Assembly: GCA_958295905.1 (NCBI GenBank)
Contig: OY282382.1
Location: 3,372,001-3,436,000 of the forward strand
Direction: 5' to 3'
From: an uncultured Vicinamibacterales bacterium
Lineage (GTDB): Bacteria; Acidobacteriota; Vicinamibacteria; Vicinamibacterales; UBA8438
Length of the DNA stretch: 64,000 nt
Shown: positions 36,600-54,524 of the stretch, in pieces
Layout: each line of letters starts with the position of its first letter
How positions within the stretch are numbered: position 1 is the stretch's first letter
Notes under the pieces: model-generated
Told to the model about the DNA's origin: nothing
Database searches by the model: none
The model's input: the letters and a program-made list of their open reading frames with translations, nothing else
Position numbers and translations under genes: made by a program

Positions 36600-36750
36600 C
36601 CGCGAATGTAATGACGGTTCCGCGCCGCCCCGGCCGACCGCCGGCGCGGTGCGGAACCGCCCCCTTTCGTCGCTGATCTGAGACCGACCTGCGCTCTCCA
36701 GGGTTGTTGCCGCTCCGATCCGCGGGCCGGCTCGGGACTAGCAGTCTGCG

Positions 36751-36849
36751 CCGTAGAACGGCGCGGACTCCTGGAGGGTTGGTTGGGCGGTGAGCGGAGC
36801 CGCAGGCGACGCTCACCGGGGCAGGCGTCTGCGCCGTAGAACGGCGCGA
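36751..36849 (+). repeat. Dispersed repeat unit forming the left attachment region
   Basis: One full unit (CGTAGAACGGCGCG, then ACTCCTGGAGGGTTGGTTGG and GAGCGGAGCCGCAGGCGACG) at 36752-36820 is followed by the first 15 bases of a second unit at 36835, where the integrated element begins. Diverged copies of the same repeat lie at 29900-29975 (reversed) and about 33300-33390. Confidence 0.85.
36835..36849 (+). other. attL core
   Basis: The 15-bp sequence CGTAGAACGGCGCGA is identical to 54457-54471. To its left is host repeat sequence; to its right is integrase-proximal phage DNA. Confidence 0.85.
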
Positions 36850-36873
36850 ACTACGCACACTCTGTTTCCTGCC

Positions 36874-37014: not shown

Positions 37015-38199
37015 ATGTGCAATACTATGGTTACGTCGAACGGGACACGGAACGCGGGAGACACGACCATGGCCACCAAAAAGCACACAGCGCGCGACAT
37101 TCCCAAGCTGCCCACGGGCATCCACTGCTTCGATCCTACCCTTTACCTGCGCGTGCAGCCGACCGGCGCGCGTTCATGGATTCAGAGAATCACGATCACC
37201 CGCGGCGGCAAGCCGGTTGACCGCGGGCTCGGCGGATGGCCCGTTGTGACTCTGGAAGATGCAAGGCTGCAAGCGCTGTCGAACCGGCGCGCCGTCCGGG
37301 CCGGCCGCAATCCGTTTGCGGACCGCGACGTTGTGAACCGTCGGATCGTGGTCCGCACCTTCGGCGCGGCGGCCGATTCGCTCATGGATACGCTCGCGGG
37401 CAAGGCGGCGACCACCATCAAAACCTACCGCAGCGTGATCGCGAGCCTGCGCCGGCTGTCGGCCCGGCCGGTTGCGTCAATCACGCGGTCCGAAGTGATC
37501 GACGCCTTGAAGGGGATCGCCAGCGTTTCCAGCCGCGCAAAGGCACTGAAGATCGCGCGGCGGGTGCTCGACCACGCAGTGACCCTCGACTGGGTAGACG
37601 GCAACGTTGCACAGAACGGCGGGATCGCCGCCGCCGTCGGCATCGAAGCAGCCCAGCCCGGACACCACGCGGCCGCGGCATGGCGCGACTGCCCCGGCAT
37701 CTTCGCGGCCGTGTCGGCCGTCGGAAGCGCCGCCGCCGATTGCCTGACATTCATCATGCTGACGGCGGCGCGGCTGTCGGAAGCGGCCGGCGCAAGGTGG
37801 GATGAGATCAACCTTGACGACGCCACGTGGACCGTCCCGGCCGGCCGCATGAAGACCAAGCGCGAGCACGTGGTACCGCTGTCGAGTGCGGCCGTGGCCC
37901 TTCTCAAGCGCCGTCAGGGGCAGCATGAGGATCTGGTATTCGCCGGCCGCGCCGGCAAGGTGCCGAGTCAACGCAATGTCGGCCGGATCATCAAGGATCA
38001 CGGTTCCACCACGCACGGACTGCGGTCAAGCTTCCGGGACTGGGCGAGTGACACCGGGCAGTCGAGAGAAGCGGCCGAGCACGCGCTAGCACACGCCGTC
38101 GGCAACAGCGTTGAACGCTGCTACGCCCGGTCAACCATGATCGACGCCCGCCGGCCCTTGATGGATGCGTGGTGCCGGTTCTTGACCGGCGGCGAGTAG
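37015..38199 (+). CDS. int: P4-type tyrosine integrase
   Basis: A 394-residue tyrosine recombinase. An N-terminal arm-binding domain (YLRVQPTGARSWIQRITITRGGK, the DUF4102-like beta part) is followed by a core-binding domain. The catalytic domain has TAARLSEAAGARWDEI (Arg I), HGLRSSFRDWA (His-x-x-Arg), HALAHAVG and the nucleophile Tyr in ERCYARS. Start ATG 37015; ATG 37069 is an alternative. A hairpin terminator follows. It catalyses integration and excision between the two 15-bp att cores. Confidence 0.95.
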   Translation: MCNTMVTSNGTRNAGDTTMATKKHTARDIPKLPTGIHCFDPTLYLRVQPTGARSWIQRITITRGGKPVDRGLGGWPVVTLEDARLQALSNRRAVRAGRNPFADRDVVNRRIVVRTFGAAADSLMDTLAGKAATTIKTYRSVIASLRRLSARPVASITRSEVIDALKGIASVSSRAKALKIARRVLDHAVTLDWVDGNVAQNGGIAAAVGIEAAQPGHHAAAAWRDCPGIFAAVSAVGSAAADCLTFIMLTAARLSEAAGARWDEINLDDATWTVPAGRMKTKREHVVPLSSAAVALLKRRQGQHEDLVFAGRAGKVPSQRNVGRIIKDHGSTTHGLRSSFRDWASDTGQSREAAEHALAHAVGNSVERCYARSTMIDARRPLMDAWCRFLTGGE

Positions 38200-38365: not shown

Positions 38366-38408
38366 ACGCTGTTGACATCGATAAATTTTCACCTTACGCT
38401 GTTGACAT
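38366..38408 (+). promoter_or_regulatory. Promoter with flanking direct repeats before alpA-like gene
   Basis: TTGACA at 38372-38377, 17-bp spacer, TACGCT at 38395-38400. The expected start of transcription falls on or near the ATG at 38407, so the message would be leaderless. The 13-mer ACGCTGTTGACAT occurs at 38366-38378 and 38396-38408, covering the -35 box and the start region, as an operator pair would. Confidence 0.55.
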
Positions 38409-38592
38409 GACAGACACACTTTTGACGTGCGCCGACCTATGCAGAATCTTTTCGTGTTCCAGAACAACGATCTGGAAGATGGCAAGGGACGGGAAGCTGC
38501 CCCCGCCGATCAGACTCGGGCGGACCATCCGGTACCGCGAGAGCGACATCAACGCCTTGCTGGAACAGCTACAGAAGGGAGAGCCGGCGTAG
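38407..38592 (+). CDS. AlpA-like excisionase/regulator
   Basis: A 61-residue winged helix-turn-helix protein with the MerR/AlpA pattern LTCADLCRIFSCSRTTIWKMARDGKLPPPIRLG followed by IRYRESDINALLE. AlpA-type proteins in P4-like satellites activate int and promote excision. Its position right after the integrase and its own promoter fit that role. The start ATG overlaps a promoter-associated direct repeat, which suggests autoregulation. Confidence 0.85.
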   Translation: MTDTLLTCADLCRIFSCSRTTIWKMARDGKLPPPIRLGRTIRYRESDINALLEQLQKGEPA

Positions 38593-38932: not shown

Positions 38933-41557
38933 ATGCCCAGAGTAGCACGTTCTCCGGCGGATTGGGAAGCCCCCGCCACCCGGCCCGGCTGGAAGAAAGT
39001 AGGCGGCGAATGGTGCGGAGGCTGCCCGATCACGGGGCAGGGTGACGACCGCTGCCACGTCAAGCCGGGCATGATCATATGCCGCGATGAAGCATGCGGC
39101 GGGCGTCCGAGCGGCGGATTGACCAAAGAGCAATACGGCGAGCATGGTAGGGCGCTCGGCATCTTCCAGAGCAACCGTTGGGACGGCGGCGGCCCGGTAG
39201 ATACATGGACCTTCGTAACAGCCGACGGCAGGACCCGCGAACAATACCGATGGGACGCCGGCAACAAGACATGGGAACGGACCGGACCGAACCCCGAAGT
39301 CTCATCCACCAACGATCCGCCGCCGGCCGCTCTGCTCTACATCCCGCGTGCTCTGGAATCGATGGATCCCGGCCGGCGCGTGCTCGCCACTGAAGGGGCG
39401 TCAGACTGCGATGCAGCAATCGCCGCGGGTCTGCAAGCCTTCGCCCGGCCGGCCGCGCGGCCGTCGCCCGAATCGCTCGCACGGCTGCCCAAGCACCTAC
39501 ATTACGCCGTAGTGCCCGACCATGATACGGCCGGCTACGATCAGGCGGCGGATTGGCAAGGCCGCATGCTGGCGGCGGGACTGGACGCCTGCATCGTCGA
39601 TACCGCCGCGCTGCACCCGGACGGCAGGCCGCCCCTGAAATACGATCTCAAGGATTACCTGTCGGCCCGGCCGGCCGACTGCGCCGCCGCGCTGGAAGCG
39701 GCAATCCTTGACCCGCAGGAATGCGAACGCCGTTGTGTCAAGACGGCATGGCTCGCCAACAAAGCCGGGAAGCCGGTAACGCTGCTCCCGGAACCACACG
39801 GAATCGACGAACGGAACATCCGCATCTTGGGCCGCGGGCCGCGCGGGACGTGGACGGACGGCAAGCTGAAACAAGACCGCGCCGACGGCGGGCACGTCCC
39901 GACCGAATCCGCCAGTCTCATCAGCCTTGACGACTGCCCGACCATCACCGAACCGGTCAAGTACATATGGCGGAACCGGATCGCACGGGGGGCACTGAAT
40001 CTGATCGGCGGCCCGCCCGACTCCGGCAAGTCACTTATCGGATACGGAATCGCCGCCGCCGTGGCGAACGGATTGGCGCTGCCCGACAGCGAACCGATCG
40101 AATCCGGTAACGTCGTCGTCATCGGTTCCGAAGACGAAGACGGTTTCAGCATGTCAGTGGCCCGATTGCGCGCCGCCGGGGCGGGCGGGAAAGGCAACGT
40201 CTACGTGCTCGAAGCGCTGCCGATCGATGCCGACATCGAAATGAACATCATGTCGGTATGCCGCGAAGCGGCGGCGCTTGATCCCGTCTTCGTGCTCATC
40301 GATTCCTTCGTTTCGTGGTACGACGGCGGCAGCGCGGTAGAAGTCAGGCGGGCGCTGCGCCTGTCAACCGGAATGCTGCGCCGGCAGGGTGCGGCCGTCG
40401 CGTTGATCGCCCACCACCGCAAGGCGGCGGTCGAGCTCGGCCCCGCCCACGACCGGGTATCCGGCGAATCGGCCGGGCTGGTCGGCGGCGCAAGGTTCGT
40501 GCTCGATGTCCAAAAAAACGGGGACGGCGGCATCGTCTCATGCACCAAGCACAACGCGGCCCCGCAAGCCGACGACGTACGGTTCCGGATCGTAACAGCC
40601 CCCAACAGCATCGTCGGCATCGTCGAATGGGAAGGCGTCGAACAGCATGTACCGGCCCGCGCGGCCGGTCCGGGAATCGACGATGAAGCCGTCTGCCGGG
40701 CCGTCGCCGCCGCCGCCGAAACGCCCAGTGCAAACGCAGTCATGGTGCAGCTCGGCATCAAGTCAGAACCCCAACGGATCGCTCTCAAGGCCAGTCTTGC
40801 CCGGCTGAAAGCGGCCGGCCGCCTGTCCACTGTCAAGCGTAAAATTAACGGTAGGGACCGCGACACATACCAGATTCCCCCGAGCAACCGTCAGCAACCG
40901 TCAGCAACCGTCGGCAACCGTCAGACGGTTGCTCCCGAGCAACCGTCAGCAGCAGCAGCAGATCTATATGCTGCTGCAGACGGTTGCTCGGGTGGTGGTG
41001 GAGAGAATCAAGCGGCGCCGTCAGAACAGACGGTTGCTCCAGCCAGACCCCTAGACGCCCGACAGGAAGCGCCGGCGCTGCCCATCGGACAGCCGGCCGG
41101 AGACTTTGATCCGGGCGGCGCGTTCGATCAAGGTGCCGGGGGGGGTACGGCCGGACCGGAATCCTACGGGGCTGATCCGGACATGCCCCCGGAGACGCTG
41201 CGCCGGGACATCCTTGAACGAATCGAAAAGATGGAGAAGTACGGTGTAGCCCACGATGAGATCGCGCGGCGCATGAACGCCCGGCTGGAGAGTGAACATG
41301 TCACGGGCTGGAAAGCTCACGTGTGGTTCGACGGGCGGACCGGACGGCCGCACGTCCAGATCGACCGATACCCGCAGCTAAGCGATCTGATGGTCGAATT
41401 CGGGGCGGACCCGACCGAACAGACGGCGGCGAAGCTGGCGGAGTACGTCTACGATGCGGGCGTTCAATGCGGGACGCTGCCGGACGGATGGACGGTCGAG
41501 ACGTTGACCGGCCGGATACTGGCGAGCGTGCAACAGCATCAGCCGGGCGTGCAGTAG
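38933..41557 (+). CDS. Primase-helicase replication protein (TOPRIM plus RepA/RecA-like ATPase)
   Basis: An 874-residue protein. Residues about 20-65 have a Cys/His zinc-binding region (C-x2-C-x8-C, then C-R-D-E-A-C). A TOPRIM-like domain follows, with LATEGASDCDAAIAAG and VVPDHDTAG. Then a RecA-fold ATPase with Walker A GGPPDSGKS (about 360), VVVIGSEDEDG, Walker B VFVLIDSF and ALIAHHRK. Next comes a winged-helix-like stretch and a Gln/Ala/Ser-rich linker encoded by an iteron-like DNA cluster. The C-terminal 150 residues are conserved-looking but unassigned. It should prime and unwind the element's own origin. Confidence 0.88.
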   Translation: MPRVARSPADWEAPATRPGWKKVGGEWCGGCPITGQGDDRCHVKPGMIICRDEACGGRPSGGLTKEQYGEHGRALGIFQSNRWDGGGPVDTWTFVTADGRTREQYRWDAGNKTWERTGPNPEVSSTNDPPPAALLYIPRALESMDPGRRVLATEGASDCDAAIAAGLQAFARPAARPSPESLARLPKHLHYAVVPDHDTAGYDQAADWQGRMLAAGLDACIVDTAALHPDGRPPLKYDLKDYLSARPADCAAALEAAILDPQECERRCVKTAWLANKAGKPVTLLPEPHGIDERNIRILGRGPRGTWTDGKLKQDRADGGHVPTESASLISLDDCPTITEPVKYIWRNRIARGALNLIGGPPDSGKSLIGYGIAAAVANGLALPDSEPIESGNVVVIGSEDEDGFSMSVARLRAAGAGGKGNVYVLEALPIDADIEMNIMSVCREAAALDPVFVLIDSFVSWYDGGSAVEVRRALRLSTGMLRRQGAAVALIAHHRKAAVELGPAHDRVSGESAGLVGGARFVLDVQKNGDGGIVSCTKHNAAPQADDVRFRIVTAPNSIVGIVEWEGVEQHVPARAAGPGIDDEAVCRAVAAAAETPSANAVMVQLGIKSEPQRIALKASLARLKAAGRLSTVKRKINGRDRDTYQIPPSNRQQPSATVGNRQTVAPEQPSAAAADLYAAADGCSGGGGENQAAPSEQTVAPARPLDARQEAPALPIGQPAGDFDPGGAFDQGAGGGTAGPESYGADPDMPPETLRRDILERIEKMEKYGVAHDEIARRMNARLESEHVTGWKAHVWFDGRTGRPHVQIDRYPQLSDLMVEFGADPTEQTAAKLAEYVYDAGVQCGTLPDGWTVETLTGRILASVQQHQPGVQ
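40885..41036. repeat. Iteron-like cluster inside the primase gene (candidate origin)
   Basis: The octamer CAACCGTC occurs at 40885, 40895, 40905, 40915 and 40940 on the plus strand and, inverted, at 40924, 40978 and 41029. The first four are exactly 10 bp apart, one helical turn. A CAGCAGCAG...CTGCTGCTG hairpin and an AT-rich GATCTATATG lie between them. Confidence 0.7.
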
Positions 41558-41677: not shown

Positions 41678-41719
41678 AACGCGGCCCGTCAGGTATTCAG
41701 CTACCTGACGGGCCGCGTT
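41678..41719. terminator. Strong hairpin terminator (18-bp stem)
   Basis: A perfect inverted repeat, 18-bp stem AACGCGGCCCGTCAGGTA with a 6-base loop TTCAGC, just after the early operon. No T-run, but stem strength and position suit an insulator between operons. Confidence 0.7.
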
Positions 41720-41825
41720 GCGCGTACGGCGCATCCTTGCTTGCATCCGCCGCCCGATGGCGGTAGATCTGTTTGCAGTACCGCCGCATGAATGCGTTTT
41801 TGTATCAGTATCAGAGTATCTCTGC

Positions 41826-41831
41826 TACAAT
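41826..41831 (+). promoter_or_regulatory. Possible -10 box of the insulated gene
   Basis: TACAAT at 41826-41831 lies 9 bases before the ATG at 41841, within an AT-richer stretch carrying repeated GTATCAG. A -35 at the right distance is not clear. The message would be leaderless or nearly so. Confidence 0.35.
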
Positions 41832-41840
41832 AGCTCCATC

Positions 41841-42275
41841 ATGGAACGTCAACGGACGATCACGGCCGCGGGCCGGGGGGGCACGGTGTCAGCAACAGAA
41901 CGGTCCGGACGGTACGCTTGGGGGGGCACTGCTGCGGCGATTGCCGCGGCGGTGCTGTCGGTGTACGGGTGGGCTGTTGCCGTTGCCGTGGCAACGGCAA
42001 CAGCGGCTGTTGCTGCGTTGCAGGCGTTCAGACTGGCCAATCGAGAGGCGAAAGCGGACCGCGCCCTTATCCGGACCGACATGGACGCAGGGTTCGCCCG
42101 CATGGACGCAGGGTTCGCCCGCATGGACGCAGGGTTCAAGGCCATCAAGGACGCGGCCAAACCAGCCGCCCGTACCGCCGCCGCCAAACCCAACCAGCCG
42201 TCGATTCCCGCCGCCGCTTCACAAGCGCCGCAACAACCGTTGCCGCGGGCGGCGAAGCCGGACGGGAACAACTGA
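41841..42275 (+). CDS. Moron-like single-gene unit: membrane protein with MDAGFAR repeats
   Basis: A 144-residue protein starting at ATG 41841. Residues about 25-65 form an Ala/Val-rich hydrophobic segment (one or two membrane helices). A coiled-coil-like stretch with three MDAGFAR/MDAGFK repeats follows, then a Pro/Ala-rich tail. It is flanked on both sides by strong hairpin terminators and has its own -10 box, the arrangement of a phage moron. Base composition and codon use resemble neighbours. Could be a superinfection-exclusion or membrane-anchored host-modifying protein; no homologue recognised. Confidence 0.65.
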   Translation: MERQRTITAAGRGGTVSATERSGRYAWGGTAAAIAAAVLSVYGWAVAVAVATATAAVAALQAFRLANREAKADRALIRTDMDAGFARMDAGFARMDAGFKAIKDAAKPAARTAAAKPNQPSIPAAASQAPQQPLPRAAKPDGNN

Positions 42276-42339: not shown

Positions 42340-42656
42340 CTTTGCGCGTACGGCTCATCCTCGCGCCACCTTCGCCTTTGGTTCGGCGCGCTCAAAATTC
42401 GTGCCAAGCTATTTTGTTTCGTCTCAAACGTCCCGTTCGCGTCTCGACTGTCAACACTAATCCTGCACGGTAGGGAACCCTGCCCGCAAAAGCGAAAGTG
42501 TTCGGGCAGGATTGGGCCTTTCTGCGCGTATAGGGGTTACAATACCCCCGTTTTCATTGAGTTTTTCGGTTGCGACACTTGAAAACCGCCGCTTCTGAAC
42601 GCCCGTACTTTCGCTTTTCAGTGCCGTGATTGCGAAAAAGTGATACGATAGCCGGC
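42340..42656. ncRNA. Structured non-coding region before terminase (possible leader RNA or packaging site)
   Basis: About 315 bp, more AT-rich than its surroundings, with no gene. CCTGCCCG (42479) pairs with CGGGCAGG (42503). AATCCTGC (42459) can instead pair with GCAGGATT (42506); the two are mutually exclusive. AAAAGCGAAAGT (42488) is repeated inverted as ACTTTCGCTTTT (42607). A TACAAT at 42538 sits in the loop of a GGGGT/ACCCC hairpin. It could be an attenuator, a small RNA, or the cos/pac site next to terL. Confidence 0.4.
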
Positions 42657-44243
42657 ATGGGCCGGCCGCGAATCTACGCCAGCAACGCGGATCGACAACG
42701 CGCCTACAGGGTGCGGGTCAAGGCTCGCAGCGCTGCGCCGCCGCCGCGCCGCCCCCGCCGGTCGGAAGCGGTATCGACGCTGGTTGCGTGGGTGCGTAGC
42801 ACGCTCATCGTGCCGTCCGGGCATCCCCGCGAAGGGAAGCGCTGGAGCATGCCGCAGTGGCAGCGCGACGTGCTTGGAGACGCCTTGACGCACCATGAAA
42901 CGCTGCTCTGTGTCGCCCGCAAAAACGGCAAGTCTGCACTGATCGCCGTTTACCTGCTCGCCCACCTTGCCGGGCCGCTGCGCCGTCCGGGCTGGCGGGC
43001 GGGAGTCTTGAGCGTGACTCGGCAGAAAGCCGGGGAGCTGCTCGACCAGTGCGAGCAGATCGCGGCGGCGAGCGGCATCACAGGGTTGACGTTCAGACGT
43101 GCCCCCAAGCGCATCCTGTCGGACACCGGCATGGTCGAGATCGAATCCGCCACGGATTCGGCCGGGCATGCCGCGGGGTACGACGCGGCCGTGATCGATG
43201 AGCTCGGGCTACTGGTTGAACGCCAACGTCCGCTTGTCGCCGGCATGCGTTCGTCCGTCAGTGCCCGCAACGGCCGGTTCATAGCTCTGACGATAGCCGG
43301 GCCGGGGCCGTTCGTGCCGGAGATTATCGACCGGCGCGGCGAGCGTGGGCTAGCGCTGCACGTCTACCGGACCGCGCAGGATGCGGCTGTGGACGATGAG
43401 ACGGGCTGGCGGCAGTCGAATCCCGGACTGGCGAGCGGCATCAAGTCACTGGCCTACATGCGCCGCGAATCGGGCCGCGTGCTTCATTCGGTGTCGGATC
43501 AAAACTATTTCCGGGCGCATGATCTGAATCAAGCGGTGTCGCCGTCGGCCGAAATGCTGGCAACGGTCGGGCAGTGGAAGCGCTGCGAGTGTCCCGCCGT
43601 CGATCTGCCGCCCCGGACCGGGAGAGTCTGTGTCGGGCTCGACCTTGGCGCCCATGCATCGTTTACAAGCGCCGCCTGCTATTGGCCCGACAGCGGCCGT
43701 TTCGAATCCTACACGGCATGCCCCGATCAGCCGTCCTTGGCGAAACGGGCGAAGACTGACGGCGCAGGCAGCGTCTATGAAGCTGCCTACCAAGCGGGCG
43801 ATCTGTGGACCCTGGGCGGCGAAGTGACGCCCGTCAAGCCGTTTCTGGAACGGCTGGCCGGCGAGCTGGCCGGCGAGCGGATCGCCGCCATCGGGGCGGA
43901 TAGGTTCAGATACCATGAGCTGCTGCGCATCCTGCATGAGCTGGGGTTGGTATGGCGTCCCGTCTGGAGGGGCGGCGGAGTCAAAGCCGAGCAGCATATG
44001 GATCAGGATTGCCGGGCGTTCCAACGGGCCGTGGCGACGGCTGCTCTGAAGGTGGCGCCGAATGTCATGCTGACTCACTCGGTGTCCGAATGTAAAACGA
44101 TACGGGACGGACAGGGGCATGTTACGCACCTTGCCGGCGTCCGCATCCGAAGCCGGATAGACGCTGTGCAGGCGGCGGTGATCGCAGTCGGGCAGGCTGA
44201 AGGAATGCCGAAGAAACGGAAAGGCAGACATTGGATCGTGTAG
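42657..44243 (+). CDS. terL: Phage terminase large subunit
   Basis: A 528-residue packaging motor (start ATG 42657; ATG 42630 is possible). The ATPase half has Walker A CVARKNGKSAL (about residue 92) and Walker B AAVIDELGLL (about 180), with an S/T-x-x coupling region after it. The nuclease half has acidic catalytic positions in VGLDLGAHASFTSAA, AIGADRFRYHEL and RSRIDAVQAAVIA. It is a Terminase_1/HK97-like large subunit. No small terminase is recognisable upstream; the nearby HNH protein may assist cos cleavage. Confidence 0.93.
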   Translation: MGRPRIYASNADRQRAYRVRVKARSAAPPPRRPRRSEAVSTLVAWVRSTLIVPSGHPREGKRWSMPQWQRDVLGDALTHHETLLCVARKNGKSALIAVYLLAHLAGPLRRPGWRAGVLSVTRQKAGELLDQCEQIAAASGITGLTFRRAPKRILSDTGMVEIESATDSAGHAAGYDAAVIDELGLLVERQRPLVAGMRSSVSARNGRFIALTIAGPGPFVPEIIDRRGERGLALHVYRTAQDAAVDDETGWRQSNPGLASGIKSLAYMRRESGRVLHSVSDQNYFRAHDLNQAVSPSAEMLATVGQWKRCECPAVDLPPRTGRVCVGLDLGAHASFTSAACYWPDSGRFESYTACPDQPSLAKRAKTDGAGSVYEAAYQAGDLWTLGGEVTPVKPFLERLAGELAGERIAAIGADRFRYHELLRILHELGLVWRPVWRGGGVKAEQHMDQDCRAFQRAVATAALKVAPNVMLTHSVSECKTIRDGQGHVTHLAGVRIRSRIDAVQAAVIAVGQAEGMPKKRKGRHWIV

Positions 44244-44269: not shown

Positions 44270-45046
44270 ATGAAACGGAAAAGGAAGTGCGGCAACGTCC
44301 AGTGCAGGCGATTGTTCAATCCGCCCGAGCGTGGACGGCCGCCGCGCTACTGCTCGCCCACGTGCCGGGTGGCCGCCTGGCGCGATATCAACAAGGTAGG
44401 CGGTAGCCGGGTGGTGGCCGCGCTGTACGTCGAGGATGGCGGGCATTACTTCGGTGTCCGGGGAGTGAGGCCGTGGGCGCAGGAAAGGGACGCACGGCGG
44501 TACCCCGGCCCGCATCCTGTGATCGCTCATCCGCCTTGCGCGCGCTGGAGCATGTTGGCCACCATCGTGCAGCATACCCACGGGCACAAGCTCGGAGACG
44601 ACGGCGGGTGCTTCCAGTCGGCGCTTGACGCAGTGAGACGGTGGGGCGGAGTGCTTGAACATCCGCTAGGTTCCCATGCATGGCGCCACCACGGCATAGA
44701 GAAGCCGCCGCCGTCCGGTGGATGGGTACCTGCCGGAGACGGCATGGGTTGGACGTGCAGCGTTGATCAACACTTTTACGGGCATCCCGCCCGTAAAAGG
44801 ACGTGGCTGTACGCTGCCCATACTGATCTGCCCATGCTGCGGTGGGGTGCTATCGACCCCGACGATGCGCCCTTCATGGTCCACAGTCCGTCTACCCGGC
44901 GACCGGGATCGGAAGCGAACCGGACGGTCAACAAGAAAGTGCGGGAAGTCAACATCGTGCGGGGTGCCGACGCGAGCCGTACTCCCGCCGCGTTCATGGA
45001 TGTCTTGATCGACATGGCGCGTTCGGTGAACCGACGGAGACGATGA
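44270..45046 (+). CDS. Phage protein with N-terminal zinc finger and HPPC motif
   Basis: A 258-residue protein; ATG 44270 is preferred over TTG 44231 because AAGGA lies upstream. The N-terminus is a small zinc finger (CGNVQC ... PPRYCSPTC). The main domain has ALYVEDGGHYFGVRGV, VIAHPPCARWSMLA, GGVLEHPLGSHAW and YGHPARKRTWLYA. The P-P-C and E-H-P segments recall DNA cytosine methylase-like proteins of phages. I cannot assign catalysis. The last four bases overlap the HNH gene start (ATGA). Confidence 0.65.
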   Translation: MKRKRKCGNVQCRRLFNPPERGRPPRYCSPTCRVAAWRDINKVGGSRVVAALYVEDGGHYFGVRGVRPWAQERDARRYPGPHPVIAHPPCARWSMLATIVQHTHGHKLGDDGGCFQSALDAVRRWGGVLEHPLGSHAWRHHGIEKPPPSGGWVPAGDGMGWTCSVDQHFYGHPARKRTWLYAAHTDLPMLRWGAIDPDDAPFMVHSPSTRRPGSEANRTVNKKVREVNIVRGADASRTPAAFMDVLIDMARSVNRRRR

Positions 45047-45333
45047 GACGACGCCATCAGCCGCGCGGGCATGCTTGGCGGAGACTTCGCAGGCGAATCC
45101 TTGACGCGGCCGGGTGGCGTTGTCAGGAATGCGGTATCCATGCTGCACGGCTGGAGCTGCATCATATCGTCGCCATCGAAGACGGCGGCGGAGACTTCGC
45201 GGACAATCTCATGCCGCTCTGCCGAGGGTGCCATCATGCCGTCCACAAGCGCGGTCCGGGACTGGGGGCGGCGCGCCGCGAATGGCGGGATGAGCTAGAT
45301 AGACGCCTACGAACATACACGGACATCGATTAG
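45043..45333 (+). CDS. HNH endonuclease
   Basis: A 96-residue HNH nuclease with the full motif: zinc-binding CQECG, then LELHHIVAIEDGGGDFADNLMPLCRGCHHAVH. The H-H / N-L / H-x-x-x-H catalytic residues are all present. Phages and cf-PICIs that package from cos sites carry an HNH gene beside terL (HK97 gp74 type), where it is needed for cos cutting. Placement between terminase and capsid genes fits that role. Confidence 0.93.
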   Translation: MRRRHQPRGHAWRRLRRRILDAAGWRCQECGIHAARLELHHIVAIEDGGGDFADNLMPLCRGCHHAVHKRGPGLGAARREWRDELDRRLRTYTDID

Positions 45334-45357: not shown

Positions 45358-46647
45358 ATGCCGGGCATGACTAACTCTCAACGGATCACGATCGCGCTGT
45401 CGAAAGTGCGCGAACGTCTGAACACGATCGCCGGCATGGACCCGTCCGAATTGACCGCCGAGCTGCGAAGTGAGCGGGACCAGCTTGTAACCGACTACGG
45501 CGAGCAGGAAGCGCAGTTACGCGCCGCAGTAACGGCCGAGGATGCAGAGGCCAAGGCGGCGGCCGAAACGCTCGGAGACGGGGACGGCGGCGGCGACAAC
45601 GCAGACTCGGAGACGGTCGAGTTACGAAGTCTCATCGGCCGTGCAACCCTGTCGGGATACCTGATGTCCTTTGCGGCCGATCGGCCCTTGGTAGGTGCTG
45701 AAAGGGAGCTCTACGAACATCGGGAGCTGTCTCCCTTCGGCCGTATGATTCCGTGGGATGTCTTGCAGCCCGTCGAATCGCCCGAGCTGCGAGCCGACGT
45801 GGTTACCCCGGTTCCGTCAACGGGGATCGCCACCAATCAGGCGGCGGTGCTTCAACGGGTCTTTGCGCCGAGTGTCGCGTTGAGACTCGGAGTAGCCATG
45901 CCGCAGGTGGCCAGCGGGGAGGGTTCGTTTCCTGTTCTGACGGGCGGCGCCACCCCGTCTTACGTCGCGCAGGGTGCGGCGAAGGATGCGGCGGCGGCGA
46001 CGATTACTCCAAACACGGTCAAGCCCGTGCGTATGCAGGCGCGCTTCCTATTCGAAATGGAGAGTGCGATTGCCATTGCGGGGTTGGAAGAAACCCTGCG
46101 GGGCGATCTTGCGATGGCAATGTCGGATCGGTTGGACGCCCAAGTGATCGGCGCAGGGGACGCCCAAGTGCGGGGTTTCTTGGCAACCCAAGCGAACGGC
46201 GGACTGACTACCCGGACCGGGCAACAGAACGCCGTAACCTTCGCTACGGCGGCGGCTGAAACGGCCGTCGGAGTGGATGGCAAATTCGCTCAGAACGAGA
46301 ACGCCTGTACGTGGTGCGTAGGTGTCGCCACCTACCAGAAGCTCGCGGGGCTGATTGCCGGCAACACTGCCGTTTCTGCCACGGAACGCGCGGGGCGGGT
46401 ACTGCGTGGTTTCTTCTGTTCGTCTCATATTCCGGCTGTGGCATCCAACCGTCAGCAAGGCATCATGGCGAAGCTCGGGGCCGGCGGTGCGAACGCGATC
46501 GCGCCCATGTGGAGGGGTTTGGAATTCGTGCGCGATCCTTACTCCAACACGAACGAAGCGAAGATCTCGATCACGTGCACGATGTTTTCCAATTTCGCCA
46601 TCCTGCGCCGGGATGCCTATGTGCGTACCGGATTGGAAGTGGCCTAG
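45358..46647 (+). CDS. Major capsid protein (HK97 fold)
   Basis: A 429-residue phage head protein. The first 100 residues are charged and helical (scaffold-like delta domain, cleaved by the protease in HK97-type phages). The capsid core follows: PSTGIATNQAAVLQRVF, a GEGSFPVLTGG strand, MQARFLFEMESAIAIAGLEE, LDAQVIGAGDAQVRGFL and a C-terminal WRGLEFVRDPYSN and SNFAILRRDAYVRTGL. This pattern is typical of HK97-fold major capsid proteins. Not in the usual portal-protease-capsid order. Confidence 0.9.
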   Translation: MPGMTNSQRITIALSKVRERLNTIAGMDPSELTAELRSERDQLVTDYGEQEAQLRAAVTAEDAEAKAAAETLGDGDGGGDNADSETVELRSLIGRATLSGYLMSFAADRPLVGAERELYEHRELSPFGRMIPWDVLQPVESPELRADVVTPVPSTGIATNQAAVLQRVFAPSVALRLGVAMPQVASGEGSFPVLTGGATPSYVAQGAAKDAAAATITPNTVKPVRMQARFLFEMESAIAIAGLEETLRGDLAMAMSDRLDAQVIGAGDAQVRGFLATQANGGLTTRTGQQNAVTFATAAAETAVGVDGKFAQNENACTWCVGVATYQKLAGLIAGNTAVSATERAGRVLRGFFCSSHIPAVASNRQQGIMAKLGAGGANAIAPMWRGLEFVRDPYSNTNEAKISITCTMFSNFAILRRDAYVRTGLEVA

Positions 46648-46777: not shown

Positions 46778-48529
46778 GAATCTCCTCAAATGCGTGTGGG
46801 TAGGGGCGGCGCCAGTTCGATGCCTCCGCAGCACAGGAACAGCATCGAGATGAGCGCACCGGCCGAGTGGAAACCGTACGCGCGCCGCGCAATCACACGC
46901 AGCTTGTTGTTGATACCCTCTACCGGACCGTTCGTCATCCGGGTGTCCAGATACGCCAGGATGCCTTCCGCGTGTTTCCGAATCGTGCGCCCCAGCTTCA
47001 CGAACGGCGCCAAGCGGGACCGCGCAGCCCACTCCAGCCACTCCTCCAGCAGCTCCGGCGCATCCCCGGGCGTCGCCTGACCCAGGATCGTCGCCAGATA
47101 CTCCTTCAGTTCGTAGGCCCGGTCCAGCGCCCGGTTCTCACGACGCAACGTCTCCAGACGCCGGGCCTCGCCGGGCTTCAGCCGCCCCGGGTGCTTCAGC
47201 AACGCATAACGCGTCCCCTTCAGCGCCTTCGCATCCGCCGGGTCCAGGCGCCGCTGCTCCGAACGCCGCACCTCGTCAACCGCATCCGACGCAAGCCGCT
47301 CAACGTGAAATCGGTCGAACACCACCCGCGCATGCGGAACCCAAGCCGCCAACGCCTTCTGCCAGCTCGACGCCAAGTCCGCCGTCACCAACTCGATCCG
47401 CGCGCACCGGCCCGGTCCCAACTGCTTGAAGAAGGCCCCCAACGTCTCCGCGCTGCGACCCTTCCCGGCCCACACCACCCGACGCGTGTCATGGTCAACC
47501 ACGAGCGTCAGATACCGGTGACGCTTCCGGTAGCTGAACTCGTCGATGCCGATTCGCTTCAGCTTGCCGAACCGAGCCCCGTCCAGCCGCCGCGCCACCA
47601 CCCGTTCCACGATGTTGCCCACCGTCACCCACGATATCCCCAGCAGGCGGCTCACCGCCGTCCGGTCCATCACCTGCGACAGATACGCCGCCAACTCCTC
47701 GAACCCCGACGTGAACACGCTGCCGCCGTCCGCCCACGGCACCTGCTCCACCTTCACCCCGCAACGCGGGCACGACACCCGCCACGGCGCGTACTGCAGC
47801 CACGCCGCCATCCGGCCCCACGACAGATGCCGCCACTCCCGAACCGGCTGCCGGTCATACCGCGGCGCCCGCTCCCCGCACGTTCCGCACCGGGAACGCC
47901 GCCACGACGGCTCCACCGACACCGTCAACGGGCCGGCGGCGGCCATCTCCACCTGCTTGACGTACATTTGCGTGACACCCAACAGCCGCCGTAGTAACGT
48001 AGTCAGACGCATGGGGCTCTCCTCCTCGCGGGTCGTGGTGGTGCACACTCATGAGACCAGGAAGCCCCTGCGTTTGCAACCGCTTCGGCAGAACGAGACG
48101 ACGCACGCGGCCCCGGCCCCGCGCCCAACGGGTGTCCCCGGGCCGGCACCGGGCCCCGGGGTGGCCGTTGGGCCAATCAGCCGGCACCTATCCCCAACCG
48201 CCGGTCGTCGCGCCGGCCGCGTCGTCGTGGACGGCCGGGACGCCCCCGTCCAGGCCGGGCCGCAAGGCCCATAACTGCTGTCTGAGCGGCGGGACGGACG
48301 GTGTGTCACCCGCAGGGCCGCAGCGCAGCGGAGGACGCGCGTAGCGCGTTGACACGCCGGCCGGCCCGGAGCTACTCCGCTCCGACCCGACCCGCCACTT
48401 GTCCGCCCGTCCGCCGCCGGATCAGGTGAACACCATGACCGCTCAATCCCGAGGCCGCCTGCGCCGCCAGCACCCCTCGCCGACCCGCTGATCGGCGCCG
48501 CCCCTACCCACACTCGTTTGAGGAGAGCC
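46778..48529 (-). mobile_element. ISL3-family insertion sequence, 1752 bp
   Basis: Inverted ends are about 30 bp: left GAATCTCCTCAAATGCGTGT, right (reverse complement) GGCTCTCCTCAAACGAGTGT, both continuing GGGTAGGGGCGGCGCC. Flanked by an 8-bp duplication CGAAGTCT (46770-46777 and 48530-48537), as expected for ISL3. The transposase occupies 46786-48012. About 500 bp at the other end (48013-48529) have no supported gene. Confidence 0.93.
46786..48012 (-). CDS. ISL3-family transposase
   Basis: A 408-residue transposase (start ATG 48012). An N-terminal zinc-binding part (CGTCG, then CPRCG), a helix-turn-helix around DRTAVSRLLGISWVTVGNIVE, then the DDE domain with IGIDEFSYRKRHRYLTLVVD, a VTADLASSW acidic segment and the C-terminal RMTNGPVEGINNKLRVIARRAYGF typical of DDE_Tnp_ISL3. 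Complete and probably active when inserted. Confidence 0.95.
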   Translation of the reverse strand: MRLTTLLRRLLGVTQMYVKQVEMAAAGPLTVSVEPSWRRSRCGTCGERAPRYDRQPVREWRHLSWGRMAAWLQYAPWRVSCPRCGVKVEQVPWADGGSVFTSGFEELAAYLSQVMDRTAVSRLLGISWVTVGNIVERVVARRLDGARFGKLKRIGIDEFSYRKRHRYLTLVVDHDTRRVVWAGKGRSAETLGAFFKQLGPGRCARIELVTADLASSWQKALAAWVPHARVVFDRFHVERLASDAVDEVRRSEQRRLDPADAKALKGTRYALLKHPGRLKPGEARRLETLRRENRALDRAYELKEYLATILGQATPGDAPELLEEWLEWAARSRLAPFVKLGRTIRKHAEGILAYLDTRMTNGPVEGINNKLRVIARRAYGFHSAGALISMLFLCCGGIELAPPLPTRI

Positions 48530-48738
48530 CGAAGTCTGCCCCTACAACATCGATCAGAAGGCATCGAATCGGCGGGAGTTTTCGCATGTTGTTGTGGAGC
48601 ATACGACCGGCACACTGACGACCTACACGGTCCATGAAACGATGGATGCGTTCCTTGCCCGCGTCCAATTGGTTCTGGGCGCATGGCGGGCCGTGTTGCC
48701 GCCCCCGCCCGCCGAGCGGCCGACCGGCGACTAGAACG

Positions 48739-49239
48739 ATGGCGACCATCCGAGCGGACATTGAGATTCGCGGCGGCGCTGAAGGTGCGCCGCCGCGTCT
48801 GCAAGGCGTTCTGATGCGCTATGGTGCCCGTGGTATGGACGGCCGCGAAACGTTCGCTGCGGGCTCGCTGGAGTGGCCTACGGACGGCATCAGGGTTGAT
48901 ATCGACCACGGCAGCTCCCCGGCGCTTGGTGCGTCCCAAATGCCCCTTCTGCGCGCCGTCCCGATCCTGTCGGATGATGGCGCCGAGGTACGGATCGACG
49001 CCCCGTTGCCCGACACTTCGGTATGCCGCGATCTGATGGTCTTGATGAGATCCGATCCGCCGATGTATCGCTCAATGTCGGTCGAGTTTCTGCCCAAGCT
49101 TTCGACCTACTCAAACGGCATCAGAACGATCACGAAAGCGCGGCTGCTCGGGGCGGCGCTTACCAGCTCCCCGCGGTATGAGGGGACAAGCGCCGAAGTG
49201 CGGGCCGACCAACCTACCCGGCGGCGGATATGGCTGTAA
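48739..49239 (+). CDS. HK97-type prohead protease
   Basis: A 166-residue serine protease (peptidase U35 type). The chain starts LQGVLMRYGARGMDGRETFAAGSLE; the catalytic His is in VDIDHG and the Ser in YRSMSVEF, followed by LGAALTSSPRYEGT. It matures the capsid by cleaving the delta domain. Start ATG 48739 lies 4 bases after the preceding TAG, and the 3' end overlaps the connector gene by 10 bases, so translation is coupled. Confidence 0.9.
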   Translation: MATIRADIEIRGGAEGAPPRLQGVLMRYGARGMDGRETFAAGSLEWPTDGIRVDIDHGSSPALGASQMPLLRAVPILSDDGAEVRIDAPLPDTSVCRDLMVLMRSDPPMYRSMSVEFLPKLSTYSNGIRTITKARLLGAALTSSPRYEGTSAEVRADQPTRRRIWL

Positions 49240-49583: not shown

Positions 49584-49711
49584 TGCTACAGGGTGAGTGC
49601 CGTAACTGCGGGTCCATCGAACGGCTGTACCGCACCACGCACGATGTCAGACTGTGCTTGCCTTGTTCTTATCGGTTATGGTTGTGCGTGCAGGCGGAGC
49701 GGGGCGAATGA
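49583..49711 (+). CDS. Small zinc-ribbon protein (42 residues)
   Basis: ATG 49583 overlaps the connector stop (TAATG). The product has CRNCGS and CLPCSYR, a four-cysteine zinc ribbon. Its stop overlaps the portal start (ATGA), so it is embedded in a coupled connector-ribbon-portal string. Role unknown; too small to be an enzyme. Confidence 0.7.
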   Translation: MLQGECRNCGSIERLYRTTHDVRLCLPCSYRLWLCVQAERGE

Positions 49712-50745
49712 TAGAGCTCGGAGTGTCCAACGGTCCGAACGTCGAGCTGCGGTCCGATGTAGCGGATTCGTACATCGCTCTGTTGCAGGGTGCCTTGTCG
49801 TCGCCGGCCGTTACCGCCGCCGCCAGTGCAGCCGTTGAGATCGCGGCCGGGCTGTGGGGTAGGACGCTGGCGACGGCCGAAGTTTCAGGCGCCCCCGTAG
49901 GACCGCGCATGCTGCACGAGATTGGACGTTCGTTGGCCCGGCAGGGGCAGTGCACCTACCTATTCGACGTGCGGCCAGACGGCACGGAGACGCTGCTACG
50001 CGCGTCCATGTCGGATGTCTGGGGCGGTGTCGATCCGGGCTCATGGCATTACCGGTTGACTCTGCAAGGTGCGCGTGCAACCACTGACACCGTGGTAGCG
50101 CCGGCGAGCCGGGTTTGTCATTTCAGATACGACACCGAACCGAACGCCCCCGCCCGCGGGCTGTCTCCCCTGGCGCTCGCCAACATGAGCGGCGAGCTGA
50201 TGAGAAACTTGGAGCGTTCCCTTGGGTATGAAACCAGCGCGCCGGTGGGGCAATTGATCCCGATCCCGGATGGGAATGAGCCGGACGAAAGCCTACTGTC
50301 GGACATCAAGAACGCCAAGGGCCGCGTTCTCATGCCGGAGACGCTGCGATCCGGAAGGGGCGACAGTGACAACCGGCCGGCCCGCGATTGGGAACCGATC
50401 AGACTCGGCAGCAATCCGCCGCAGTCCTTGGTGCAGCTACGCGCCGCCGTCGAGAACAGCATCCTGGGCGCGTTCGGTGTCCCGTCTTCGCTCGGCCCTT
50501 CGGGACTGTCCGACGGCACGATGGCCCGCGAATCAATACGAAGGTTCTGGGCCACCACCATCCAACCCATCGGCGCGATGGTGGCCGAAGAGCTGGAGCG
50601 TGTATTGGAACGCCCCGTAAGTCTCGACCACGCACAGCCGAGCGGCGCGGCCGACGTGGCCAGCCGTGCACGCGCGCTGCATGTCAGTGTGCAGGCCGGC
50701 CTTGACTTGGTTGAAGCGAAACGCCTTGTCGGATGGGGCGATTGA
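49708..50745 (+). CDS. Phage portal protein (HK97 type)
   Basis: A 345-residue portal starting at ATG 49708, overlapping the zinc-ribbon stop. Segments typical of HK97-like portals are an N-terminal PAVTAAASAAVEIAAGLWGRTL, SWHYRLTLQGARATT, the conserved HFRYDTEPNAPARGLSPLALA, LIPIPDGNEPDES, and LRAAVENSILGAFGVPSSLG with a long C-terminal helix. It is shorter than the usual 380-450 residues. Forms the DNA entry channel. Placed after protease and capsid rather than before them. Confidence 0.9.
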   Translation: MIELGVSNGPNVELRSDVADSYIALLQGALSSPAVTAAASAAVEIAAGLWGRTLATAEVSGAPVGPRMLHEIGRSLARQGQCTYLFDVRPDGTETLLRASMSDVWGGVDPGSWHYRLTLQGARATTDTVVAPASRVCHFRYDTEPNAPARGLSPLALANMSGELMRNLERSLGYETSAPVGQLIPIPDGNEPDESLLSDIKNAKGRVLMPETLRSGRGDSDNRPARDWEPIRLGSNPPQSLVQLRAAVENSILGAFGVPSSLGPSGLSDGTMARESIRRFWATTIQPIGAMVAEELERVLERPVSLDHAQPSGAADVASRARALHVSVQAGLDLVEAKRLVGWGD

Positions 50746-51462: not shown

Positions 51463-52919
51463 CAGCCCGAGGTAGAAGTCCCCGGTGTTCAGATGGCTGG
51501 CTGAAGGGGCCGGTGGCTCGATAGCGCGGCGACCCGCGCCGAATTGGGCCGGAATCGCGTCAAGAGCCGCTCCAGACCGCTCCACAGGCCCACAAACCGC
51601 CCAATCAGCCCGCAGACGGCGGATACCACCCCGCCCCGCAGGCCGCGGGGCGTGCCGGCGCCGATCGCCTGACGCAGAAGCAGCCCGAGGTTGAGGCCCG
51701 CGACGTGCACCAGCAGGCGCTTCAGGATGTTCGAATGCCCCCGAAGGTGCACCCGGCGCATCCCGCCGGTCTCAAACAGGTGCGCAAACGGACGCTCCAC
51801 CAGCTCGCCACGACGCCGCAGCAAACGCCGGCCCCGCTTGCCCCGGATCCGGCGCCGGTTCCCATACACCGCGTCCCGAGCCTCCGGCGCGTTCTTCCAG
51901 CTCCGCCGGCCCCGGTCCGGCTCCGCAATGTAGCTCCGAACCTCCACCGCCGCCAAATCCACCATCGTCTCGTTGCTGTGGTAGCCCTTGTCCGCAACCA
52001 CCTCCGAAACCCCCGCCGCCTCCGGCAACACCGTCTCCACCTGCTCCGTCGCCGTCACGAGGGTCTCGGCCATCGTCGCCGTATCCCCCTTGTCCGCCCC
52101 CTGGATCGTCACACCCACCACCGCACCCGTCTCCAGATCCACCGCATGCTCCACCTTGTGGGCCAGGTGGGTGCTGCCGTCCTTCATCTTCGCGACCTTC
52201 GCGTCCGGGTCGTGGGGGTGGGTCCAATCCTTGTTCGACGTCTTCTTCTTCCGCTTCCGGTCAAAACGCGCCAACTCCTCCGCCGTCGGCGTCTCGATGC
52301 CGGAAGCTTTCGCCAAACGGGTCAGGAACGCCGTGTAATCCTCGCCCGTGTCACGCCGAACGATGCTCCGCATCGCCGCGTTCGCCTCCAGCGTCGTCGC
52401 ATCGACGCCCAACGTCTTCCCCGCAACCAAGCCCGCCCCCGCCAACTGCTCCAGCACCCAAGTGAACACCGCCTGATGGGTCTCCACCGGGAACAGCCGA
52501 CGCGTCCGCGAAATCGTCGAATGGTCCGGGGGCGCCGCCGGCGCCGCCAAACGCAGAAACGCCCGCATGCTCAGCGAATCCTCCGCGCGCCACGCGATGC
52601 CCCGCTCCGAGTCCAGCCCTTCGAAGTACCCGATGAGCAGCAATCGGAAGTACCGTCCGGGAGCCAGACTCGGCCGGCCCATCACCGCGTAGAACGGCGC
52701 GCACAGGCCTTCGACGAACGCGTCGAACCCTGCCGCCTCCAGAATCCGGTTCAGTCGCTCGTAGAACGGATGCCCCGCACTCTGCGACAGATCCGCCGTC
52801 GCGACCCACATCGACTGCTGCGACCCGTCGTCGCGCACCGTGCCCATTGCCATGCCCGCCAGTGTAGTACATGGGGGCCGCCCTGTCGATCCCTGGACGC
52901 CGACTTTCACCACGGGCTG
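51463..52919 (-). mobile_element. IS1182-like insertion sequence, 1457 bp
   Basis: Imperfect inverted ends: left CAGCCCGAGGTAGAAGTCC, right (reverse complement) CAGCCCGTGGTGAAAGTCG. Flanked by CTAC at 51459-51462 and 52920-52923. One transposase gene fills the element. Confidence 0.9.
51489..52853 (-). CDS. IS1182-like transposase (DUF772 + DDE domain)
   Basis: A 454-residue transposase; ATG 52853 is chosen over an upstream reading because it begins just before SMWVATADLSQSAGHPFYERLN. The N-terminal DUF772 part has YFRLLLIGYFEGLDSERGIAWR, and the DDE core has GVDATTLEAN (first Asp), ADKGYHSNETMVD (second Asp) and RGELVERPFAHLFETGGMRRVHLRG (Glu region). Intact. Family assignment between IS1182 and related IS5-like groups is from memory of motif style. 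Confidence 0.9.
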   Translation of the reverse strand: MAMGTVRDDGSQQSMWVATADLSQSAGHPFYERLNRILEAAGFDAFVEGLCAPFYAVMGRPSLAPGRYFRLLLIGYFEGLDSERGIAWRAEDSLSMRAFLRLAAPAAPPDHSTISRTRRLFPVETHQAVFTWVLEQLAGAGLVAGKTLGVDATTLEANAAMRSIVRRDTGEDYTAFLTRLAKASGIETPTAEELARFDRKRKKKTSNKDWTHPHDPDAKVAKMKDGSTHLAHKVEHAVDLETGAVVGVTIQGADKGDTATMAETLVTATEQVETVLPEAAGVSEVVADKGYHSNETMVDLAAVEVRSYIAEPDRGRRSWKNAPEARDAVYGNRRRIRGKRGRRLLRRRGELVERPFAHLFETGGMRRVHLRGHSNILKRLLVHVAGLNLGLLLRQAIGAGTPRGLRGGVVSAVCGLIGRFVGLWSGLERLLTRFRPNSARVAALSSHRPLQPAI

Positions 52920-54456: not shown

Positions 54457-54524
54457 CGTAGAACGGCGCGACTCCTGGAGGGTTGGTTGGGCGGTGAGCG
54501 GAGCCGCAGGCGACGCTCACCGGG
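54457..54524 (+). repeat. Right attachment region: attR core plus rest of the host repeat unit
   Basis: The 15-bp core CGTAGAACGGCGCGA (54457-54471) is followed by CTCCTGGAGGGTTGGTTGGG and GAGCGGAGCCGCAGGCGACG, continuing the dispersed host repeat that breaks off at 36849. The full unit is therefore split by the element. Confidence 0.88.

Follow-up and report, generated by a model that had tools for sequence, protein, structure and literature searches.

Why should a gene for a replication protein carry, inside its own coding sequence, a dense cluster of short exact repeats in both orientations? The question is raised by a primase-helicase (initiator) gene encoding 874 amino acids (aa) at 38933..41557 on the + strand of the window, the window being the whole 64-kb stretch of DNA that was analysed. 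Eight exact copies of CAACCGTC lie at 40885-41036, five of them direct and three inverted, and the array ends inside the coding sequence, 172 codons before the stop of the gene. An initial annotation had located these copies, had described the first four as phased at exactly 10 bp and had proposed an iteron origin within the primase gene. The positions and the phasing were confirmed, and the proposal of an origin candidate is supported, as the array exceeds chance and recurs in relatives of the gene.

The copies of CAACCGTC start at 40885, 40895, 40905, 40915 and 40940 on the + strand and at 40924, 40979 and 41029 on the - strand, which gives an orientation of ++++-+-- and start-to-start steps of 10, 10, 10, 9, 16, 39 and 50 bp. 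The full iteron unit is longer than the octamer, as AGCAACCGTC(A/G)G is common to the copies, and the candidate intragenic replication origin formed by the eight units extends over 40883..41038 and is assigned to neither strand. It begins with four exact head-to-tail iterons at 10-bp spacing (40885..40922, +), which are followed by an exact inverted copy (40924..40931, -) and by a hairpin that is a candidate melting site (40934..40992, no strand assigned); the outermost inverted iteron, also exact, closes the array (41029..41036, -). The hairpin has 24-nt arms (40934-40957 and 40969-40992) that are 96% complementary and contain one iteron each (40940 on the + strand, 40979 on the - strand), separated by the 11-nt loop GCAGATCTATA. 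It had been annotated as AT-rich; the hairpin is real, but this description fits only its loop, since the largest gap between iterons has an AT content of 38%, compared with 32% in the window. The iterons thus sit as two sets, ++++-+ and --, around a hairpin spacer whose AT enrichment is weak. The GC-skew peak that had been expected at the array did not appear: there is no clean switch at 41 kb and no origin signal.

The array does not arise by chance. No other 8-mer cluster of the window is as dense, the runner-up having four copies against its eight, and 300 synonymous-codon shuffles of the primase-helicase gene never produced more than four copies. When the shuffling was confined to the 120 codons around the array, none of the 300 shuffles reached the observed score. 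A dispersed genomic repeat was rejected as the source, as the tandem pair GCAACCGTCNGCAACCGTC occurs once in the 6.3-Mb genome, in the array itself; the two further matches, with 2 mismatches each, are about what chance would give. A peptide repeat was rejected as well. The 10-bp step and the inverted copies cause the iterons to be read in all three phases, so that the copies are translated as SNRQ, QPSA, ATVG, QTVA and DGCS, and copies in three reading phases and both orientations mean that the repeated object is the DNA and not the peptide. The initial annotation had likewise held that the DNA rather than the protein appears to be under selection, and the relatives agree with this, in that they keep an array while iteron and peptide differ.

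The encoded protein gives the array its context. A Toprim-like primase segment (aa 135-226; 39335..39610, +) was recognised from a match to the DNA primase family phrog_6088 (aa 139-226, E 0.0018) and from Toprim motifs read in the sequence. It precedes a RecA-fold helicase of the AAA_25 type (aa 333-499; 39929..40429, +), which matches PF13481 with an E value of 4.6e-16 (59.5 bits against a cut-off of 27) and has an RSF1010 RepA-like fold, its best single-domain structural relatives being structures of RSF1010 RepA (1nlf, 1olo and 1g8y; TMt 0.66-0.68). The protein had been annotated as a P4-type primase; its helicase, however, is not the SF3 enzyme of P4 alpha. An antisense tRNA-Gly (GCC) called by ARAGORN within the primase gene (39627-39702, -) is probably spurious. 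The AlphaFold2 model of the whole protein has a modest mean pLDDT of 64.7, but its pattern of order and disorder is clear. It contains a winged helix with an HHH-beta-beta arrangement (aa 582-647; 40676..40873, +), which is the proposed iteron reader, and then a disordered linker with pLDDT below 50 (aa 654-742; 40892..41158, +). The iterons encode aa ~651-702, that is, about the first half of this linker, and the peptide is of low complexity, as had been noted, and also predicted to be disordered. According to the model, the array does not mark the end of the protein, as a folded C-terminal domain is predicted after it (aa 753-869; 41189..41539, +), a block with pLDDT values mostly of 75-92. 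This domain gave no Pfam match above cut-off, no PHROG match and no convincing PDB fold match, and no relatives in viral contigs; its genome matches, in six genomes, reach only E ~1e-4, which is near chance level for the 396 genomes searched.

The gene belongs to a segment that appears to have been inserted into the chromosome. About 17.8 kb of DNA are bounded by a perfect 55-bp direct repeat, the left copy of which (36766..36820, +) is a probable attL and the right copy (54470..54524, +) a probable attR. In two congeners the host flanks are separated by ~0.45 kb, and compared with these genomes the segment is therefore an insertion. The att-like repeat (36730-36853) is part of a dispersed repeat for which two congeneric genomes each gave over 60 matches. 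As copies of this family occur by the dozen in the genus, the 55-bp repeat is a probable rather than a proven att site: either a REP-like family may be the target of the integrase, or the insertion may be younger than the direct repeat. A tyrosine integrase gene (37015..38199, +) adjoins the left copy and is followed by one for a small AlpA/excisionase-like HTH protein, identified by eye from sequence (38407..38592, +). Downstream of the primase-helicase gene are genes for a terminase large subunit (42630..44243, +), an HNH endonuclease of the packaging type (44842..45333, +) and an HK97-like major capsid protein (MCP; 45358..46647, +), the last with weak profile matches to phrog_617 and phrog_10 (E ~1e-5). 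Candidates for the prohead protease (48634..49239, +; Peptidase_S78, E 0.0036, below cut-off) and the portal protein (49654..50745, +; Phage_portal, E 5e-9, 36.2 bits against a cut-off of 39.1) complete a capsid gene order of MCP-protease-portal. No tail genes were recognised among the ORFs profiled, and neither TerS nor head-tail connectors gave a profile match among the ORFs tested. Two IS copies, one of the ISL3 family (46789-48048) and one of the DDE_Tnp_1 type (51492-52913), fall in this gene module, and their presence makes the present activity of the element uncertain. A further repeat, ATGGACGCAGGGTTC threefold in tandem at 42080-42140, lies within a small membrane-protein-like ORF (41718-42275). 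Judged by these genes, the segment 36766-54524 resembles a capsid-forming satellite of the cf-PICI kind in an acidobacterial host.

A single-protein search found no close homologues of the whole protein in collections of viral contigs, genome contigs, phages and plasmids; the sole match, on a plasmid, had 26% identity and was to the helicase. Distant homologues of the combined helicase and winged helix were therefore used to test the iterons. Three of these from Acidobacteriota (L010, L011 and L012) carry differing arrays in coding sequence just past the winged helix. L010 has AAGCGACCCT as 2 + 2 inverted copies with 10-bp steps and a 73-bp centre, L011 has six copies of CCGAAGAA, and L012 has GTGTGCCAA as 2 + 2 inverted copies with 9-bp steps around a spacer with 70% AT against 36%. 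The gene of L010 (1054-4014, -) is a mosaic in which the shared Toprim N-terminus, with 41% identity, is joined to a D5/SF3-like helicase (DUF5906), which suggests that the type of helicase can be exchanged while the intragenic array stays. In L013 the array, four copies of GATGATCA, lies past the stop codon. The expectation that homologues would share the octamer itself did not hold in that form: the iteron changes from element to element, and the array and its position are kept. The converse case, a homologue that keeps the peptide and has lost the octamers, was not encountered among the relatives found. In six other genes (L120, L123, L148, L163, L182 and L186), a CxxC-containing zinc-ribbon-like tail comes directly past the iteron-encoded stretch, in the position that the folded domain has in the window protein.

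To survey the position of such arrays, the sequences were divided into bins of 500 bp, and the highest-scoring cluster of exact repeats in each bin (k = 8-10, both strands, span of 200 bp) was compared with 60 dinucleotide shuffles of that bin. Among 55 dereplicated helicase genes from viral contigs (survey 1), the bin centred on the stop codon (within 250 bp) was significant in 18, compared with 13 of 712 control bins (Fisher p 1.5e-14). Survey 2 comprised 72 genes from named genomes, two that the first step had already yielded having been left out (L154, identical to L012, and L161, identical to L011), and gave 20 significant stop-codon bins compared with 16 of 1035 control bins (Fisher p 4e-16). 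Arrays thus recur where the homologous helicase genes end. In survey 1, three lie inside the coding sequence, five straddle the stop codon and ten come after it; the corresponding figures for survey 2, relative to the true stop, are 13, five and two. When both surveys are pooled, 16 of the 38 genes with an array contain it wholly and a further 10 have it across the stop, although the query of survey 2 was built from genes with intragenic arrays, which may bias the intragenic share but not the position effect. Most of the intragenic arrays also stood out against synonymous shuffling: when 22 of them were compared with 300 synonymous shuffles each, 17 beat all shuffles and two all but one, and another two were matched by 3 and 9 of the 300. 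The coding part of L066 was not significant in this comparison, its array lying mostly beyond the coding end. About two thirds of the homologues have no exact-repeat array detected near the stop; they possibly have degenerate iterons, an origin elsewhere or none. A second group of AAA_25 helicase genes (L035, L039, L044, L049, L058 and L060) has an array about 1.1-2.3 kb before the helicase end, around or before the 5' end of the gene and not at its 3' end.

Apart from a few related pairs, the iteron sequence is specific to each element, and it is the layout that is shared. In the relatives the steps measure 8-10 bp or roughly double, and the copies fall into at least two sets, which frequently point in opposite directions. 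One or two gaps of 39-73 bp interrupt them, and the AT content of these gaps usually exceeds that of the locus, as in L044, where the spacer has 76% AT against 49%. The steps can be nearly mirror-symmetric (9,9,43,20,13,27,12,20,43,9,9 in L045; 9,42,20,42,9 in L048). The window array, with the steps and orientations given above, fits this layout. Iteron similarity was associated with winged-helix identity (Mantel Pearson r 0.22, p 0.0015; Spearman p 0.05), weakly and with close pairs carrying much of the signal; the same comparison with helicase identity gave a Mantel r of 0.08 (p 0.16). This hints, faintly, that the winged helix may be the part that reads the iterons.

The best reading of the locus is a candidate iteron origin that would be read by the protein's own winged helix, as if a rep-ori module of the PICI/SaPI type had been absorbed into rep, so that the tail of the gene seems to double as protein code and origin. 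As far as sequence can tell, it is highly probable that the array is the replication origin of the cf-PICI-like element, placed inside the gene of its own initiator, a fusion of Toprim primase and AAA_25 helicase. It is proposed to work as follows. Once the element has excised, the protein would bind its own iterons through the winged helix, which is encoded just upstream of them. The two iteron sets, mainly opposed, would seat two helicase assemblies face to face on either side of the short hairpin spacer, which is AT-richer and where the duplex would open; the helicase would then load itself and the Toprim domain would prime synthesis. The same ~150 bp, when translated, would serve as a disordered tether between the winged helix and the C-terminal domain, and since such a tether tolerates almost any sequence, the DNA sites can be kept.

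Other functions of the array have to be weighed against an origin. Iteron arrays in iteron plasmids can double as incompatibility or control sites, and the array could likewise be an operator for the initiator or for another DNA-binding protein, acting in autoregulation, in copy control or handcuffing, or in partition, with replication starting elsewhere; a site within the gene, ~2 kb past its start, could also act as a roadblock to transcription. An operator would, however, be expected near the promoter, an 8-mer cluster scan found no second array elsewhere in the element, and an origin agrees better with the adjacent winged helix, with the arrangement of the iterons in two sets with AT-richer spacers and with the likeness to characterised PICI/SaPI origins, which makes an operator improbable. 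Still less probable is another cis-acting site of the satellite, for packaging (cos/pac) or transfer. Terminase and HNH endonuclease genes of the element do lie 1-4 kb downstream, but the normal place of a packaging site is beside terS/terL, and the arrays of the homologues are tied to the end of the helicase gene and not to terminase genes.

Little credence can be given to an RNA element in the primase mRNA, in which the inverted repeats would form an attenuator- or terminator-like hairpin. The predicted fold is strong (z = -10.3 for the array folded as single-strand DNA), but the inverted iterons themselves would produce such folding, the four direct copies are left unexplained by RNA pairing, and no Rfam match was found across the element. 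The orientations also differ among the relatives, which include arrays with few inverted partners. A low-complexity or simple-repeat expansion in the protein linker, devoid of any DNA function, is just as hard to credit. It would suit a low-complexity linker with (CAG)n-like runs and no constraint at the protein level, yet the 10-bp phasing breaks the frame, some copies are inverted, synonymous shuffles never reproduced the array, and independent, element-specific arrays occur at the same place in unrelated tails, so that this explanation is largely refuted.

Beyond the origin proposed for the window, the homologues would, on balance, probably represent a widespread class of replicons, as yet undescribed, whose initiator-helicase gene serves as its own origin, encoding a winged helix, then the sites of this winged helix within ~200 bp as a disordered tether and, in some lineages, a further domain. 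This class would span prophages, satellites and islands of Acidobacteriota, Actinomycetota, Chloroflexota, Planctomycetota and others, the further domain being the CxxC zinc-ribbon-like tail in six genes of the actinobacterial type and a candidate new fold in the window protein. If so, the position and sequence of an origin could be read from the 3' end of an AAA_25 primase-helicase gene in phyla that have no mapped origins, and dozens of natural reader-site pairs would make the recognition code between winged helix and iteron testable. It would also suggest why these modules travel as units, as recombination can hardly part a reader from its sites when both lie within ~200 bp of one gene. Capsid-forming-satellite-like elements would, moreover, extend to Acidobacteriota.

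Among known systems, the closest in organisation are the PICI/SaPI origins, in which iterons are as a rule 3'-adjacent to rep (PMC6092414, PMC7581432). Origins next to rep are likewise reported for SCC elements. The C-terminal domain of SaPI Rep reads the iterons directly downstream of its gene, and that of Cch2 binds its ori (PMC7581432). The window locus resembles them in having a self-recognising initiator helicase with a C-terminal DNA-binding domain, here proposed from sequence, in its two sets of short iterons around a spacer, here only slightly AT-richer, in a candidate origin placed towards the 3' end of its initiator gene and in an iteron private to each element. It differs from the published cases, where the origin is immediately downstream of the gene, in that the array is in coding sequence and ~170 codons follow it, which makes it a variant of this organisation in that respect and not a member of it. 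The helicases differ too, as those of SaPI Rep are of the DUF927 and D5 types (PMC7581432) and that of the window is AAA_25/RSF1010-RepA-like. In gene content, the element resembles cf-PICIs (PMC10690885), with integrase, primase/rep, TerL, HNH endonuclease, major capsid protein, candidate protease and portal and no recognised tail genes, and its size of ~15 kb without the two IS copies is close to their mean of 14 kb (PMC10803314). This likeness is one of gene content, and the acidobacterial host, the MCP-protease-portal order and the two IS insertions set the element apart from known cf-PICIs.

In satellite P4, alpha has an SF3 helicase and the origin (ori1/crr) is non-coding. The window protein shares with P4 alpha the fusion of primase and helicase, short iterons of either orientation and, as proposed here, a domain in its C-terminal part that binds the origin, whereas it has a RecA-fold AAA_25 helicase in place of SF3; only L010 pairs the same N-terminus with a D5/SF3-like helicase. 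Origins within initiator genes are already known from lambda O (PMC3985674) and repC (PMC3155836). As in the lambda ori, iterons in the middle of a gene would be recognised by the protein of that gene; lambda O, however, is neither helicase nor primase and has four direct iterons of ~19 bp, compared with ~10-bp units in both orientations and a helicase in the same polypeptide here, and homology of the window protein to lambda O is not expected. The oriV of repABC replicons also lies within the coding sequence of its initiator, repC, and was shown to be sufficient in R. etli p42d; it was located by means of a large A+T-rich region, and RepC is not a helicase fusion (PMC3155836). A search of the open-licence literature found intragenic iterons reported for no AAA_25 primase-helicase. 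What appears to be new is therefore a recurrent array in the coding tail of AAA_25 primase-helicases from many phyla, situated between a winged helix and, in some of them, a further domain.
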